A stretch of DNA of 45,449 bases, from IMG/VR virus record IMGVR_UViG_3300048694_000804, positions 1 through 45,449 of that record; one strand, written 5' to 3'. The notes beneath the pieces are model-generated. The model did not search any database and was not told the DNA's origin. It worked only from the letters and a program-made list of their open reading frames with translations. This document shows positions 4,201 to 45,449 of this stretch, piece after piece (position 1 is the stretch's first letter; each line of letters begins with the position of its first letter). A program made the translations under genes and the position numbers. This DNA comes from a virus.

Positions 4201-6144
4201 AATATGTTGCCATACATTTAATTGAAAGGTAGCCGAACTTTCATCTGCAATTCCCCATGTTGAAGAATTACTAGCTACCAATACAGAAAAAACTCCTGTG
4301 CTTTTAATAGCTATTCCAACACCTGAGTAATTTGCACTACTGGCACGTTTGTAAAAAATTGAGTTATAAGCATTTGGTGCCGAAGTTGGATAAATCCAGG
4401 CCTCATATGTAAAATCTGATGATCCCATCTGTAGTGATGCGTTATCAGCAACGGTTGAATAATCCGTACTACCATTAAAATATGTTGAACCATATGTTGC
4501 ATAACTGCTGCCGGGTACAAATGGTATGTAACTTGATATTTGTGATCCAGTGTTGGTAATTGCTATAGCATTTGTACTATTATCTAAGAAGTTGTAACTT
4601 TGACAGGTCAATAAATTTGTACCAGAAATGGCTGTGAGAGGTGCAGTAGGCGGAGTAAAGGCACTAGTATAAACCGCAGTGCCCGAAACGATTCTAAAAT
4701 TAGAAATATAGCCGTTTAGGTAATAAGCAGTGGAGGTTATAGATTTTCCAATTCCGTTGGAGCCAGTATAACTAAAATTTTGACTGGTTGTGGCCGTAGC
4801 GGTGCTAACACCGTTTTGATATAGGGTCATTGCAGTGCCATTTCTAACCACTGCTATATGTGTCCAAGTATTAAGAGGTATGGCTGTACCGGTGACAAAG
4901 TTACTGATATCGCCACCAAATATGGGCACTCTTGAACTATTAATGAATAAGTATGGACTTGTATCAGCACCGTTTCTATAACCATAGATCCAATAGTTTA
5001 CACTTGGCGTGCCTAACAAATAAACCCAACATTCCATGGTAAAACTTCCACTGCCTAAGGCCGTGGGATTACTGAATGTTAGTGCACTTGTGCTACCATC
5101 AAAATAATTACTATAATAACCACCTTGAAGTGGATTAAAGTTATTTGGTTTTACTGATCCAACTGGTGTAATTGCAAAATTGTTTGTGCTTGCATCACTG
5201 ATGTATGTGCTCGTACTTGTGTTTGCACTTAATAGTGTGGCCACATATGGCATATACAAATCTCCACCAACAGTAACAACCCAATTAATAATCTGTTGTG
5301 CAGTTCTGCTTGTTGTGTTTGATGTTGCAGTAATCAATGAATTTGTATTTCCAAGAACAGTAGGTGTTCCGCTGATTGTACTACCACTTAAAGTTAATCC
5401 TGTTGGCAATGTGTTCGCTGAATACTGAACACCATAACCTGCCGCACTTGTGGCTGTCAACGACACGTTTGAAATTGCAGAGTTTTGACCAACTGAATAT
5501 ACTACGTTATTTGCAGGACTGCTCCATGTGACCACATCAGGGTTAACTGTCAAGGAGAACGCACGGTCTGTATCTTGGTTTTGTGCGTCTGTTGCTCTGA
5601 TGGTAAAGTTATATGTGGTTGAACTGGCTGTTGCAGAACTTGTGCCGCTGATGTATCCGTTTGAAGAATTCAAAGATGCGCCAGTAGGCAATGAACCACT
5701 ATAAACACTATATGTGATTGGTGCATCACCAGAAGCAATTACTGTATTTGCAAATCCAGTTGTTTCATATACAGAACCTAAAGTACCTGCCGCTGTTGAC
5801 CAATTTGGAACACCACTATATTGGAGACCAGGAACAGCAATCGCTGTACCACCATCTGGATTCACCAAATAAATTGGATAACCACCAGAAGATTGTGCAG
5901 GTGCGGTGAACTGGACATTTGATGAACTGTTGAATGTTACTGAACCTGCTAGTGAACCATTGATAACGATAGTACATCCAGTAACAAAACCACTACCAGT
6001 TAAAATAACAACATCACCGCCAGCCGTATTAACTGCGGTGTCATTTCCTGGATAAACGATTGTTTGTATTTTTGGACCACCACCAGAACCAATTGCTGTT
6101 GTGACTGATGGACCCAAATTGTAAACGGAAATTTTTGTTGTCAT
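1294..6144 (-). CDS. Giant LamG-repeat virion protein (1616 aa) with IPT/TIG and Ig-like N-terminal domains
   Basis: Residues about 23-110 look like an IPT/TIG domain (GGDVVILTGSGF, then a surface-loop pattern). Two putative-Ig (He_PIG-type) domains follow at about 113-203 (SLPTGASLNSSNGYISGT) and 205-292 (TLPTGLTLSGSTISGTP). The rest is six laminin-G/concanavalin-A-like domains starting near residues 346, 556, 780, 998, 1228 and 1446. Each opens with YF(D/N)G...L..G.FT.E.W and contains a W.H.A..R motif, a NG segment and a GY(I/M)S(N/D)(F/V)R(I/V) motif. Spacing is about 210-230 residues. LamG_3 domains bind sugars or proteins, so this is most likely a host-surface adhesion protein on the tail. 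An AATAAATA octamer lies about 25 bases upstream. The copies are clearly diverged in sequence, so the array is old rather than a recent tandem amplification. An extracellular host-like origin of the domains is possible but not shown. Confidence 0.88.
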   Translation of the reverse strand: MTTKISVYNLGPSVTTAIGSGGGPKIQTIVYPGNDTAVNTAGGDVVILTGSGFVTGCTIVINGSLAGSVTFNSSSNVQFTAPAQSSGGYPIYLVNPDGGTAIAVPGLQYSGVPNWSTAAGTLGSVYETTGFANTVIASGDAPITYSVYSGSLPTGASLNSSNGYISGTSSATASSTTYNFTIRATDAQNQDTDRAFSLTVNPDVVTWSSPANNVVYSVGQNSAISNVSLTATSAAGYGVQYSANTLPTGLTLSGSTISGTPTVLGNTNSLITATSNTTSRTAQQIINWVVTVGGDLYMPYVATLLSANTSTSTYISDASTNNFAITPVGSVKPNNFNPLQGGYYSNYFDGSTSALTFSNPTALGSGSFTMECWVYLLGTPSVNYWIYGYRNGADTSPYLFINSSRVPIFGGDISNFVTGTAIPLNTWTHIAVVRNGTAMTLYQNGVSTATATTSQNFSYTGSNGIGKSITSTAYYLNGYISNFRIVSGTAVYTSAFTPPTAPLTAISGTNLLTCQSYNFLDNSTNAIAITNTGSQISSYIPFVPGSSYATYGSTYFNGSTDYSTVADNASLQMGSSDFTYEAWIYPTSAPNAYNSIFYKRASSANYSGVGIAIKSTGVFSVLVASNSSTWGIADESSATFQLNVWQHIAVVRSGSNFYFYVNGVRKISTTIAFSVYDSGAAQAIGCGAADGSQPFTGYINGVRIVKGTAIYTAASFTPPAAPLTAVANTSLLTYQNNTPVTSSVFVDNSTNNFPITRNGDTNAGTFSPYGAGWSNYFNGSGDYLSFPYNSTNFQFAGDFTVECWVNLTARLVSYPTIFSNYSTFAANGLLALFAGHAASTTKYSVSINGTDGVLVSSSTISYGTWTHLAISRSGSTVKLFVNGAVEATATNSTTITGTSNSWWISAAGDAPTTTNIQGYISNFRIVKGTALYTAAFTPGTSPLQAIANTSVLTCQSPNFVDNSGNNFALTVNGSPKVYKYNPFGITTLSTPYYGAYFNGSSDYLTLPANSAFSLGTGDFTFEAWVFPTGTNASAMPIIEIRTSGANATGIAFLRTGNASTLNVYTNGAFVGASSSSLTLNAWNHVALVRSGSGSNNCTYYINGTAAGTFTNTANLTDGSTTGPKIGGSTSAGEVWIGSMSNVRITKGQALYTGTFTPSTSPLTTTSQGATASNVSALILQNSTFIDNSPNNFAVTAATTTVKPTRFSPFTLSYSTQQQYSSTVLDGSAYFDGTGDNLTIPTNAAFEIGSGTFTIELWINPSSLKGYQGILGKTGAADLNGWILYFETNNSINFNTGNGSWTVSLNGGAVVPLNQWTHVAVTKDSSNVYRLFVNGNQVATTTNALTTNTTSGLFYIGKWPYFPSYASTMDFGGYMSNIRIIKGTALYTSAFVPPTSPVTPVQNTTLLVSAANGGIIDSSMQTNFETFGDARISTAVTKFTGGSSIYFDGTGDYLTTSLNQNLQFGTGDFTVECWSYLLSKVTNYPCIFGNYNSYTTGALSLFAGHNSGTNTLYQVAVNGATFPVIQSTTAISYNNWVHLAVVRSSGVITLYVNGVANGTYSFSGALNGVGSNFCIGTAFDNITNGYINGYLSDFRVTKGYARYTANFTPSTVPFSPR

Positions 6145-42781: not shown

Positions 42782-43402
42782 ATGGCTACAAAACCCTCTA
42801 TTCTTACTACATTATCTGACGAAAAGATAGCAGCTCAACATAGAACAATGAGCCGTGAATCTTTGACATGGTTGATGAAACGCATACAAGGATTAAGAAA
42901 TCCTTATGGTATGGTCAGACCGTTGACAAAGGAGACACATCGTTATGTTCGTGCAAGTGACAGACAGAAGTTTTTGATGGGTGGATTATACTATTTTTGG
43001 TATGATCCAAAGACCAAAAAAGAATTACCTTATTATGACAATTTTCCATTGGTAATGCCCTTAAAACGAGAGGCTGATGGATTTATTGGACTGAACTTTC
43101 ATTATTTGCCTATCAGATACCGCATCAATTTTATGAGAAAGTTGTTGCCACTTGCAATTTATAATGATGAAGATGAAATCAAAAGAATAAGAATTACATA
43201 TCCTATACTTGATGCATCCAACAGATACAAAGAGTTTAGGCCTTGTATCAAAAAGTATTTGTATGGTCATGTTCGTTCCAGAATATTGGCCGTGGAACCA
43301 CAGGAATGGGATATTGCACTATATTTGCCAATACACCAGTTCAAAAAAGAAAGTGCCAAGAATGTTTGGCAAGAATCCGTAGACGAAATAAGGACACACT
43401 AA
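42782..43402 (+). CDS. Conserved protein of unknown function beside gp4 (206 aa)
   Basis: I recognise the sequence pattern from T4-like phages but not a characterised function. Segments that look conserved are SRESLTWLMKRIQGLRNPYG, RQKFLMGGLYYFWYDPKTKK, LPYYDNFPLVMPLKREADGF, IGLNFHYLPIRYRINFMRKL, then FRPCIKKYLYGHVRSRILAV and EWDIALYLPIHQFKK. The protein is basic and rich in aromatic and Arg/Lys residues. It sits between head completion (gp4) and a tube protein. T4 gene 2, the DNA-end protector, neighbours gene 4, so a gp2-like role is conceivable, but I see no motif that supports it. The ATG lacks a Shine-Dalgarno and has a late-promoter-like octamer 5 bases before it. Confidence 0.85.
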   Translation: MATKPSILTTLSDEKIAAQHRTMSRESLTWLMKRIQGLRNPYGMVRPLTKETHRYVRASDRQKFLMGGLYYFWYDPKTKKELPYYDNFPLVMPLKREADGFIGLNFHYLPIRYRINFMRKLLPLAIYNDEDEIKRIRITYPILDASNRYKEFRPCIKKYLYGHVRSRILAVEPQEWDIALYLPIHQFKKESAKNVWQESVDEIRTH

Positions 43403-43942
43403 ATGGCAGGAAGTATCGCAGATTTCAAGGCCAATTTTAAAAAAGAACTTGCAAGGCCCAATCGTTTTGATGTATCCATCATTGTTCCTCCTGTTTTGAC
43501 TGTTTTTGCGGGTCAACCAAACGCAAACCGAACACTCAAATACAGCTGTGAAAATGCTATGTTGCCAAGTAGAACCTTTGCAACAACAGAACAAAAAACA
43601 TATGGACCTATTGAAAAGTATCCATATTTGACCACATACAACGACTTGGATTTGACTTTCATCGTTGATTCTGAGATGAATCAGAAATATATTTTTGATG
43701 CATGGTTGGAGTATATCAACCCTGCGTTTACAAATAACTTCAAATACAAAGCAGATTATGCAACATATTTGACCGTGAATCAATACAATACAGAAAACGA
43801 AATTGTTTATTCTGCTGATTTCTTTGAATGTTATCCAATCTCCATGAACCAGATGGATTTAGACTGGTCTGCTGATGGATATCATAAATTAACAGTAACT
43901 TTTGCTTATACTAGATGGTTCAATAGAACATTTGTCATTTAA
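43403..43942 (+). CDS. gp19-type tail tube protein (179 aa)
   Basis: The pattern fits the T4 gp19 tube fold: FKKELARPNRFDVSIIVPP (T4 ARPNLFQVEISY), LKYSCENAMLPSRTFATTEQ (T4 FQCKATALPAG), a TFIVDSEMNQKYIFDAWLEY segment (T4 TVMNDEAHDARQKFVDW), YATYLTVNQYN, then FFECYPISMNQMDLDWSADG and HKLTVTFAYTRWF (T4 ELQLDWDSNNEIQTFEVTLALDYW). Its length is 179 residues against 163. Besides the major tube gp19, a tube-initiating or minor paralogue is possible, because it lies next to hub genes and the usual sheath gene neighbour (gp18) is not in the window. It begins directly after the previous stop codon, with AAGGA about 9 bases upstream. Confidence 0.85.
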   Translation: MAGSIADFKANFKKELARPNRFDVSIIVPPVLTVFAGQPNANRTLKYSCENAMLPSRTFATTEQKTYGPIEKYPYLTTYNDLDLTFIVDSEMNQKYIFDAWLEYINPAFTNNFKYKADYATYLTVNQYNTENEIVYSADFFECYPISMNQMDLDWSADGYHKLTVTFAYTRWFNRTFVI

Positions 43943-43957: not shown

Positions 43958-44686
43958 ATGGCTTTACCTAAACTTGAAGTGCCAACATACGAACTTGAAT
44001 TGCCACTTTCTGGAAAGAAAATTAAATACCGACCATTCTTGGTCAAAGAACAGAAAAACCTGATGATGGCCATGGAATCCGGTGATGCGGAGACCATCCA
44101 ATATAATGTCAGAGAGATTCTAAACGTCTGTACCATGACAAAAAATATTGATATAGATGACTTACCAATTTTAGATATAGAATATTATTTTGTTAATCTT
44201 CGTGCAAAATCGGTCGGTGAAATTGTTGAATCAAAATATCGTTGCAACAATGATGTGAATGGACAAGAATGTGGTAATACGATGGATGCAAAAGTTGATT
44301 TAACTCAAATCAAACCAGAATGGGAAGAAAAGATTGATCCTGAAATCAAATTGACGGATAAAATCGTTATCAAGATGAGATATCCAAAATTTGGTATTAT
44401 TAAAGATTCTGTTAATGTTGATAATATTACTGATGTAACCTTTAATATGATTGCCAGCTCAATTGAATATATCTATGATGGCGAACAATTTTATTATGCA
44501 AAAGAAACAACCAAAGAAGAATTGTTGGAGTTTATTGAACAGTTGAGTCAACAACAATTTGAAAAGATTGAAAAATTCTTTGCGAATCTACCAAAGATGA
44601 AAAAGAATATTGAAATGACCTGTTCTAAATGCGGTTTTCATCATAAAATGGAAGTTGAGGGTCTTGAAAGTTTTTTCGCATTTTAA
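43958..44686 (+). CDS. gp26: Baseplate hub assembly protein of the T4 gp26/gp51 family (242 aa)
   Basis: This 242-residue protein fits the T4_baseplate family (gp26/gp51): LEVPTYELELPLSGKKIKYR, PFLVKEQKNLMMAMESGDAE, VREILNVCT, DIDDLPILDIEYYFVNLRAK and SVGEIVESKYRC. Two Cys pairs, Cys96/Cys105 and Cys222/Cys225 (CSKCGFHH), could form a zinc site. In T4 these proteins are needed in catalytic amounts to build the hub and are absent or minor in the virion. Near the end the frame reads S-F-F-A-F-stop across the heptamer TTTTTTC (44671-44677), with the -1 frame open for 62 further codons. The gene thus resembles the first member of the siphophage G/GT chaperone pair and, like it, lies just upstream of a long tail gene. 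Whether gp26 or gp51 is the closer T4 relative cannot be decided here. Confidence 0.85.
   Translation: MALPKLEVPTYELELPLSGKKIKYRPFLVKEQKNLMMAMESGDAETIQYNVREILNVCTMTKNIDIDDLPILDIEYYFVNLRAKSVGEIVESKYRCNNDVNGQECGNTMDAKVDLTQIKPEWEEKIDPEIKLTDKIVIKMRYPKFGIIKDSVNVDNITDVTFNMIASSIEYIYDGEQFYYAKETTKEELLEFIEQLSQQQFEKIEKFFANLPKMKKNIEMTCSKCGFHHKMEVEGLESFFAF
44671..44677 (+). promoter_or_regulatory. Candidate -1 programmed frameshift site TTTTTTC
   Basis: The heptamer T TTT TTC is in the correct zero-frame register (X XXY YYZ, codons TTT TTC at 44672-44677), 3 codons before the stop. GAGGG at 44657-44661 ends 9 bases upstream, close to the spacing of the dnaX stimulatory element. No strong downstream hairpin is evident in the AT-rich sequence that follows. 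Confidence 0.7.
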
Positions 44687-44865
44687 TTTGTTATGATACA
44701 TTAAGTAATTATTATAAGACTAATTTTGGATTGATGCAACACCACAAATATAGTCTGACCGAACTTGAAGATATGATACCATGGGAACGTGACATTTATG
44801 TTACCTTATTGATTCAGTATTTGGAAGAAGAAAATAGAAAACTAAGAGAACGGATGAAAAGTTAA
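44677..44865 (+). CDS. Frameshift extension (T-like domain) of the gp26/gp51-type protein
   Basis: After a -1 slip at 44671-44677 the ribosome would read 62 more codons: RILICYDTLSNYYKTNFGLM, then QHHKYSLTELEDMIPWERDI, then YVTLLIQYLEEEN and a basic end, giving a fusion of about 302 residues. The IPWERDIY.TLL.QYL.EE segment is the kind of sequence seen in the T part of G-T tail chaperones. The -1 frame has no stop before the slip site other than TGA at 44665. An internal ATG at 44734 could start a free 43-residue protein, but it has only a weak TGGAT in front of it and would omit the coding-looking stretch before it (LSNYYKTNFGLM). I therefore favour the frameshift. The alternative is a separate small gene. 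Confidence 0.7.
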   Translation, partial: RILICYDTLSNYYKTNFGLMQHHKYSLTELEDMIPWERDIYVTLLIQYLEEENRKLRERMKS

Positions 44866-45449
44866 ATGCCAGAAGTATCAGAAGAAGGTAAAAGTATTGT
44901 CAAAAGAGTTATGGGTTTGTTTCGTAGTAATGAACAAACCAAGGATTCTATTGGTAAAAATTCTTCCAGCACAGAAATACTTTCTGGCATATACAAAATG
45001 TTGGTGCAAAGAGAGACACAAAGAGCTCTTGATTACAAAACAGATAAAAAACAAAATCAGGCAGAAGAAAGAGAATTAGAAAAAAGACATAGAGAAATTC
45101 TCAAGGCCTTATCATTTAAAAGACCACCAAAAAAACAAATAGAAAAAAAGGTTGCGGAAGAAAAACCAGCCAAACCGACTACACCAACTAAAGGTGAAAA
45201 ACCACCTGAAGCGGCATCAAAAACAGGAGCTCCTAAAGCTGAGCCACCTACGGCTGCAACACCAAAAGCTGAGCAACCAAAGGCCGCAACACCAAAAGCT
45301 GAACCACCTACAACTGCAGCACCAAAACCATCAGCTGAACCGCCTACAGCTGCAGCACCAAAACCATCAGCTGAACCACCTACAGCTGCAGCACCAAAAC
45401 CATCAGCTGAACCACCTACAGCTGCAGCACCAAAACCATCAGCTGAACC
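44866..45449 (+). CDS. Large tail protein, N-terminal part only, with Pro/Ala repeats
   Basis: It starts at the ATG immediately after the extension's TAA (TAAATG) and stays open to the right edge (194 codons). Residues 1-80 are helical and charged (ILSGIYKMLVQRETQRALDY, then RELEKRHREILKAL), followed by a Lys/Pro-rich linker and tandem repeats of the type A-E-P-P-T-A-A-A-P-K-P-S. In phages with a G/GT pair the next gene is the tape-measure protein; in T4-like aquatic phages a long tail protein with a peptidase or lysozyme domain often sits here. Either would fit, and the deciding C-terminal part is outside the window. The repeat linker probably separates an N-terminal anchoring helix from a later domain. 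Confidence 0.75.
   Translation, partial: MPEVSEEGKSIVKRVMGLFRSNEQTKDSIGKNSSSTEILSGIYKMLVQRETQRALDYKTDKKQNQAEERELEKRHREILKALSFKRPPKKQIEKKVAEEKPAKPTTPTKGEKPPEAASKTGAPKAEPPTAATPKAEQPKAATPKAEPPTTAAPKPSAEPPTAAAPKPSAEPPTAAAPKPSAEPPTAAAPKPSAE
45238..45449 (+). repeat. In-frame tandem repeat: two 30-base then four 36-base units
   Basis: Units start at 45238 and 45268 (30 bases, peptide AEPPTAATPK and a variant), then at 45298, 45334, 45370 and 45406 (36 bases, AEPPTAAAPKPS), with a partial unit at the right edge. The 36-base copies are nearly identical to one another (differences such as CCG/CCA and ACT/GCT), and arise from the 30-base unit by an added Pro-Ser. The copy number is probably unstable. 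Confidence 0.9.

Follow-up and report, generated by a model that had tools for sequence, protein, structure and literature searches.

Does the gp26-like gene at the right end of this viral DNA give a single protein, or does a programmed -1 frameshift just before its stop codon provide a short and a long form, as in the tail assembly chaperone pair G/GT of phage lambda? The window, i.e. the whole stretch of DNA that was analysed, is the 45,449-base virus record IMGVR_UViG_3300048694_000804, and the genes read in it encode tail and baseplate proteins of the T4-like type. The genes near the right end all lie on the plus strand: a gene for a gp2-like DNA end protector (positions 42782-43402) is followed by a gp19-like tail tube gene (43403-43942; phrog_45 tail tube, E-value 2e-38), which lies directly 5' of the gp26-like gene (43958-44686). 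The latter encodes 242 amino acid residues and matches PF12322 (T4_baseplate) with an E-value of 3e-63 and 213.8 bits against a gathering cut-off of 24.5, as well as phrog_150 with an E-value of 1e-68. The next gene begins with the ATG at 44866 and is cut by the window end (44866-45449); it occupies what is putatively the tape-measure position, and it encodes 514 residues in contig L002, whose gp26 is identical to the gp26 of the window. In the window clade, no PHROG match and no tape-measure annotation were found for this gene, and the PHROG search with the gene that follows the extension in marine cyanophage S-SM2 gave weak tape-measure matches. In the window, the part of this gene from 45140 to 45449 contains a tandem Pro/Ala-rich repeat (KPSAEPPTAAAP).

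The reading that we prefer, with a probability of about 0.92, is that gene 26 is a tail assembly chaperone gene in which a programmed -1 frameshift would give a short form (TAC-N) and a long form (TAC-NC), in the same way as in lambda G/GT.

The heptamer and the open -1 frame at the end of the gp26-like gene

The last codons of the gp26-like gene read GAG GGT CTT GAA AGT TTT TTC GCA TTT TAA. Because the frame-0 codons are AGT TTT TTC GCA TTT TAA, the T TTT TTC at 44671-44677 is a slippery heptamer of the X_XXY_YYZ type, and two sense codons (GCA TTT) separate it from the stop TAA (44684-44686) that closes the short form. Moreover, the -1 frame is open for 62 codons (44677-44862) and ends with a TAA at 44863-44865, at once followed by the ATG at 44866. 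The extension, putatively the C-terminal domain of the long form, occupies 44677-44865, and the length of the predicted fusion is 240 + 62 = 302 residues. In addition, the Shine-Dalgarno-like element GAGGG is located at 44657-44661, 9 nt 5' of the slip site. The earlier note had described the heptamer in the correct register just before the gp26 stop, a GAGGG ending nine bases upstream of it, the 62-codon frame with a 302-residue fusion, and the next gene at TAAATG, and direct reading of the sequence confirmed all of them.

In-register TTTTTTC occurs twice in the 14,144 codon positions of the 28 window genes; if only the last 20 codons of each gene are considered, the number expected over all 28 genes is 0.08. 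In a sequence of the window composition, an open frame of 62 codons has a probability of about 0.012 by chance. Because the relatives compared keep both the slip site and the open -1 frame, a chance origin of the two is untenable.

According to the mechanism proposed here, most ribosomes would stop at 44686 and give the 242-residue short form. At TTTTTTC, a minority would slip, with the two tRNA-Phe in the P and A sites moving one base back (TTT TTC to TTT TTT), and the pairing of the upstream GAGGG with 16S rRNA would probably aid this slippage. The slipped ribosomes would then read frame -1 to 44865, which would result in the 302-residue long form. From the sequence we strongly infer the slippage itself. 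If the parallel with lambda G/GT extends to function, the role of the short form in tail assembly would be coating, and the extension of the long form would recruit the tail tube subunits and the tape measure or the hub and connect the former to the latter.

Change of the frame under selection at the slip site

A scan of viral contigs with gp26 yielded 80 relatives with gp26 identities of 63-100%, from which 56 unique complete loci were obtained after deduplication. The TTTTTTC is invariant in these metagenomic loci (56/56), all 56 have an open -1 frame of 60-65 codons, and the first residue past FF in frame -1 is Arg in every one of them; these related loci are not independent, so that such counts overstate the number of independent observations. 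An alignment of related phages had been suggested in the earlier note as a check on the conservation of the heptamer and the open -1 frame, and both turned out to be conserved.

The dN/dS values (Nei-Gojobori, 56 loci) show in which frame the sequence is constrained. Over the 60 codons that precede the slip site, frame 0 gives a value of 0.17. In the next segment, which extends from the slip site to codon 18, frame -1 gives 0.12, against 0.96 for frame 0 and 1.35 for frame +1, and the 56 loci contain in this segment 113 stops in frame 0 and 142 in frame +1, with none in frame -1. For codons 19-54, the value is 0.06 in frame -1, and those in the other two frames are 1.55 and 4.33. Purifying selection moves from frame 0 to frame -1 exactly at the heptamer. 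Furthermore, the slip Phe codons are TTT and TTC in 56/56 loci, whereas elsewhere in gp26 a conserved Phe may be written TTT in one locus and TTC in another. The invariant heptamer and the change of the selected frame at this position support the assignment of a -1 frameshift site.

A different explanation for the constraint downstream is that the peptide is encoded by a separate small gene, the cyanophage 'gp51', which would have its own start in the window (TTG at 44731 or ATG at 44734) and be translated via reinitiation or translational coupling. The peptide is annotated in this way in the records of S-SM2, Syn33 and phiM12, and the usual ATG of frame -1, at codon 19, is present in 42 of the 56 loci. 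However, this ATG is absent from the other 14, the predicted anti-Shine-Dalgarno (anti-SD) pairing 5' of it averages -0.45 kcal/mol versus -7.51 kcal/mol at the gp26 start, and in T4 gp51 the same segment is continuous with the gp26-like domain. Since the strong constraint on frame -1 already covers the 18 codons that precede the first usual start, it is very unlikely that the peptide has a gene of its own. This reading, for which neither a conserved start nor a ribosome binding site was found and which is at odds with the constraint ahead of the start, was rejected, in agreement with the view of the earlier note that the peptide is not a separate gene. Relatives with a clearly separate gene for the peptide and no slip site, which according to that note would speak against frameshifting, were sought and none was found among the relatives compared; the T4-type relatives fuse the peptide in frame.

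It is also conceivable that the break between the frames is a sequencing or assembly error in a gene that, like T4 gp51, in fact has an uninterrupted frame, for T runs are typical sites of indel errors. Such an error is scarcely credible, because the identical break with the frame-0 tail and stop is found in 56 unique metagenomic loci and many isolate genomes, and because the frame-0 codons are constrained up to and through the heptamer. As the break recurs across the relatives, this explanation was rejected as well.

Regarding the stimulators, the motif GA[AG]GG about 10 nt 5' of the heptamer is invariant in the 56 unique loci. Its predicted anti-SD pairing is -6.65 kcal/mol versus -5.22 kcal/mol in synonymous-codon randomisations, with 0 of 200 draws as strong in this test, which ignores relatedness. 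The Shine-Dalgarno-like element is a probable stimulator of the frameshift. These results also bear on whether the shift could be due to RNA polymerase slipping on the T run rather than to the ribosome. Polymerase slippage is conceivable on 6 or 7 T, and DNA data cannot separate the two kinds; it is nevertheless improbable, since nearly all lineages conserve a run of just six T closed by a C, the X_XXY_YYZ phase is kept without exception, and the Shine-Dalgarno-like element is placed as for ribosomal -1 shifting and shows a synonymous bias towards anti-SD pairing. Ribosomal slippage is thus preferred. In pseudoknot-free folding, no conserved RNA structure was found 3' of the slip site in the window clade, and the z-score of downstream RNA folding is -0.53 for the window. 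A downstream stem-loop or pseudoknot is not obligatory at bacterial -1 frameshift sites. Among the eight sequences folded, a strong predicted hairpin 3' of the slip site (z-score -4.3) was seen solely in the KVP40-like Vibrio phage VH7D (L084, 2011-2090).

Distant lineages and the two-gene arrangement of T4

Beyond the close relatives, TTTTTTC was found in the isolate genomes S-SM2, Syn33, P-SSM3, S-WAM1, DSL-LC03, ZZ01, VH7D, QD01, Ahp1, CC2 and ACP17, and also in SRB7757, avDM12, AG-345 and L229 (a relative of VH7D), while phiM12, Atu_ph04 and OspM_OC have TTTTTTT instead. The slip site and a homologous -1 extension are kept in lineages whose gp26 is merely 20-36% identical to phiM12 gp26. 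Moreover, all 79 complete loci found with the gp26 of S-SM2 contain TTTTTTC and the open -1 frame; L221, which is cut by a contig end, is outside this count. A large part of the T4-like phages, including marine and freshwater cyanophage-type, Vibrio, Aeromonas, Sinorhizobium and other lineages, would accordingly produce two tail chaperones from one frameshifting gene, as judged from these sequences. In the Ackermannviridae Vi01 and BX-1 and in Vibrio phage K364 (L140, 2205-2410; L143, 2190-2410; L145, 2205-2420), frame -1 is likewise open and its C-terminal peptide is similar; these phages have no canonical heptamer, only a short poly-U (ATTTTC, GTTTTTC and CTTTTTG) before the gp26 stop.

The annotation of the locus in public records deserves attention. 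The small genes for a 'gp51 baseplate hub assembly catalyst' in cyanophage and phiM12 records (L082, 2022-2195; L083, 2061-2198; L085, 2022-2183) seem to be pieces of the -1 extension without a start of their own, and in many records the extension is either missing or wrongly given as a gene in its own right. In a comparison of T4-like genomes from 2010, cyanophage and marine vibriophage gp51 was described as being without about 200 N-terminal residues (PMC3037559); the proposed frameshift explains this truncated look. In S-WAM1, the annotated gp26 (L092, 1423-2010, 195 residues) probably starts too late, since the open frame has 240 residues and the PF12322 match begins at position 5658 of that record.

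The arrangement in T4 and its close kin is different. The frameshift-type genomes have one PF12322 copy each, and the T4-type genomes have two, namely gene 26 (about 208 residues, antisense) and gene 51 (about 250 residues). The profile of the extension, which in the window matches phrog_634 with an E-value of 7e-28, aligns to the C-terminus of T4-type gp51 and not to gp26 (hhalign probability 97%, E-value 5e-11), and the fused forms align with T4-type gp51 at a probability of 99.6% (E-value 2e-23). Furthermore, the C-terminus of T4 gp26 aligns at the junction of gp26 and extension, and gp51 runs on through this junction. Among the 39 gp51-bearing viral contig loci, 37, as parsed, have the fused domain at the end of gp51, and in 36 of these 37 gp51 is directly preceded on its 5' side by an antisense gp26, the remaining one beginning too near the contig end. 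The two loci outside the 37 are L117, which was not parsed, and L136, which is interrupted. In this T4-type contig (L136, 2793-3255), gp51 is open in one frame for its C-terminal part only, and upstream of this part there may be an interruption, an inserted element or a sequence error.

No slippery sequence was present at the homologous positions of the T4-type genes (0/71). The FF residues are mostly retained in T4-type gp26 and are written TTCTTT in 23 of 35 unique sequences. The T4-type sites are therefore a natural control, in which the residues are mostly kept and the slippery codons are absent where frameshifting is not needed.

Judged by these alignments, T4 has the fusion ready-made and in frame as gp51, with gp26 as its short form, and by homology the extension is the domain with which T4 gp51 ends. 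The baseplate hub assembly catalyst gp51 of T4 thus equals the predicted fusion, but in frame: it is encoded by a separate gene without a frameshift and is paired with the antisense gene 26, whereas the window clade has one frameshifting gene. This, together with the one versus two copies, supports the earlier proposal that G/GT has its T4-like counterpart in the gp26/gp51 family. Where other T4-like lineages use one frameshifting gene, T4 and its close kin would have two chaperone genes, and the T4 gene 26 and gene 51 mutants offer a way to study the short and the long form separately. Tentatively, it is possible that frameshifting is the older state in the gp26/gp51 superfamily, and that a single frameshift gene gave rise to the T4 pair 26/51 when it was duplicated, one copy was inverted and the slip site was lost, with Vi01, BX-1 and K364 as outliers that may still shift on a short poly-U without a canonical heptamer; this direction may already be contained in a publication of 2022 by Vladimirov, Gautam and Davidson.

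Likeness to known tail chaperones and relation to earlier work

Lambda G/GT shares with the window a -1 shift shortly before the short gene ends, giving a short form and a minor long form, which in the window are predicted from the genes. The location is also alike, with the tail tube gene on one side and on the other a large gene, which in the window is putatively in the tape-measure position, and the order of tail tube gene and then chaperone gene is alike in both. An in-frame fused homologue of the long form, i.e. the short form plus a C-terminal domain, exists in T4-type gp51. On the other hand, the heptamer of lambda is GGGAAAG and that of the window is TTTTTTC, and no sequence similarity to lambda GT was detectable (hhalign probability 0.3%). 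The parallel to G/GT therefore holds for the short/long logic and for T4 gp51 as the fusion homologue, but not at the level of sequence. Divergence in sequence is expected among chaperones, and a role shared with lambda GT is thus compatible with the absence of similarity. The chaperone role of the window gene would follow from published work and from the fact that the gene is homologous to T4 gp51, which is known to act in hub assembly.

The search of the sequence against solved structures found no similarity. AlphaFold2 gave confident models, with a pLDDT of 86 for gp26 and 91 for a T4-type gp51, and in the gp51 model the extension forms helices past the junction. Foldseek matched many T4-type baseplate hub proteins. 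In the comparison of the gp26 model with the PDB, the tail assembly chaperone of HK97 (2ob9) ranks second and sixth, as weak matches that are not significant (TM-scores normalised by target 0.39 and 0.36; E-values 1.6 and 2.2; probability 0.51 for the second). The comparison of the gp51 model with the PDB gave no informative match and no chaperone.

The earlier note knew of no description of such a frameshift for T4-type phages. However, as represented in later papers that cite it, the chaperone identity of these proteins in T4-like phages was published in 2022 by Vladimirov et al. The PRFect paper (PMC10885494) cites this work for some T4-like phages that carry a short and a longer fused chaperone gene instead of frameshifting, and another paper (PMC12846349) attributes to it the poly-T slippery signals of TAC-N genes in T4-like phages. 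Judging from these two citing papers, we infer that gp26 and gp51 are the genes meant, and the work as cited there describes the same short/long logic in T4-like phages as found here. Relative to what is cited from it, the present analysis adds the uncultured clade, the frame-resolved selection tests, the T4-type codon control and the Shine-Dalgarno-like element, and the novelty is modest. A chaperone frameshift is also described for Vandenendeviridae and Andersonviridae (PMC12846349), in which, as in the window, a conserved -1 frame extends past the short gene and the slip motif is a poly-T; the motif there is GTTTTT, whereas the window has the full TTTTTTC heptamer.
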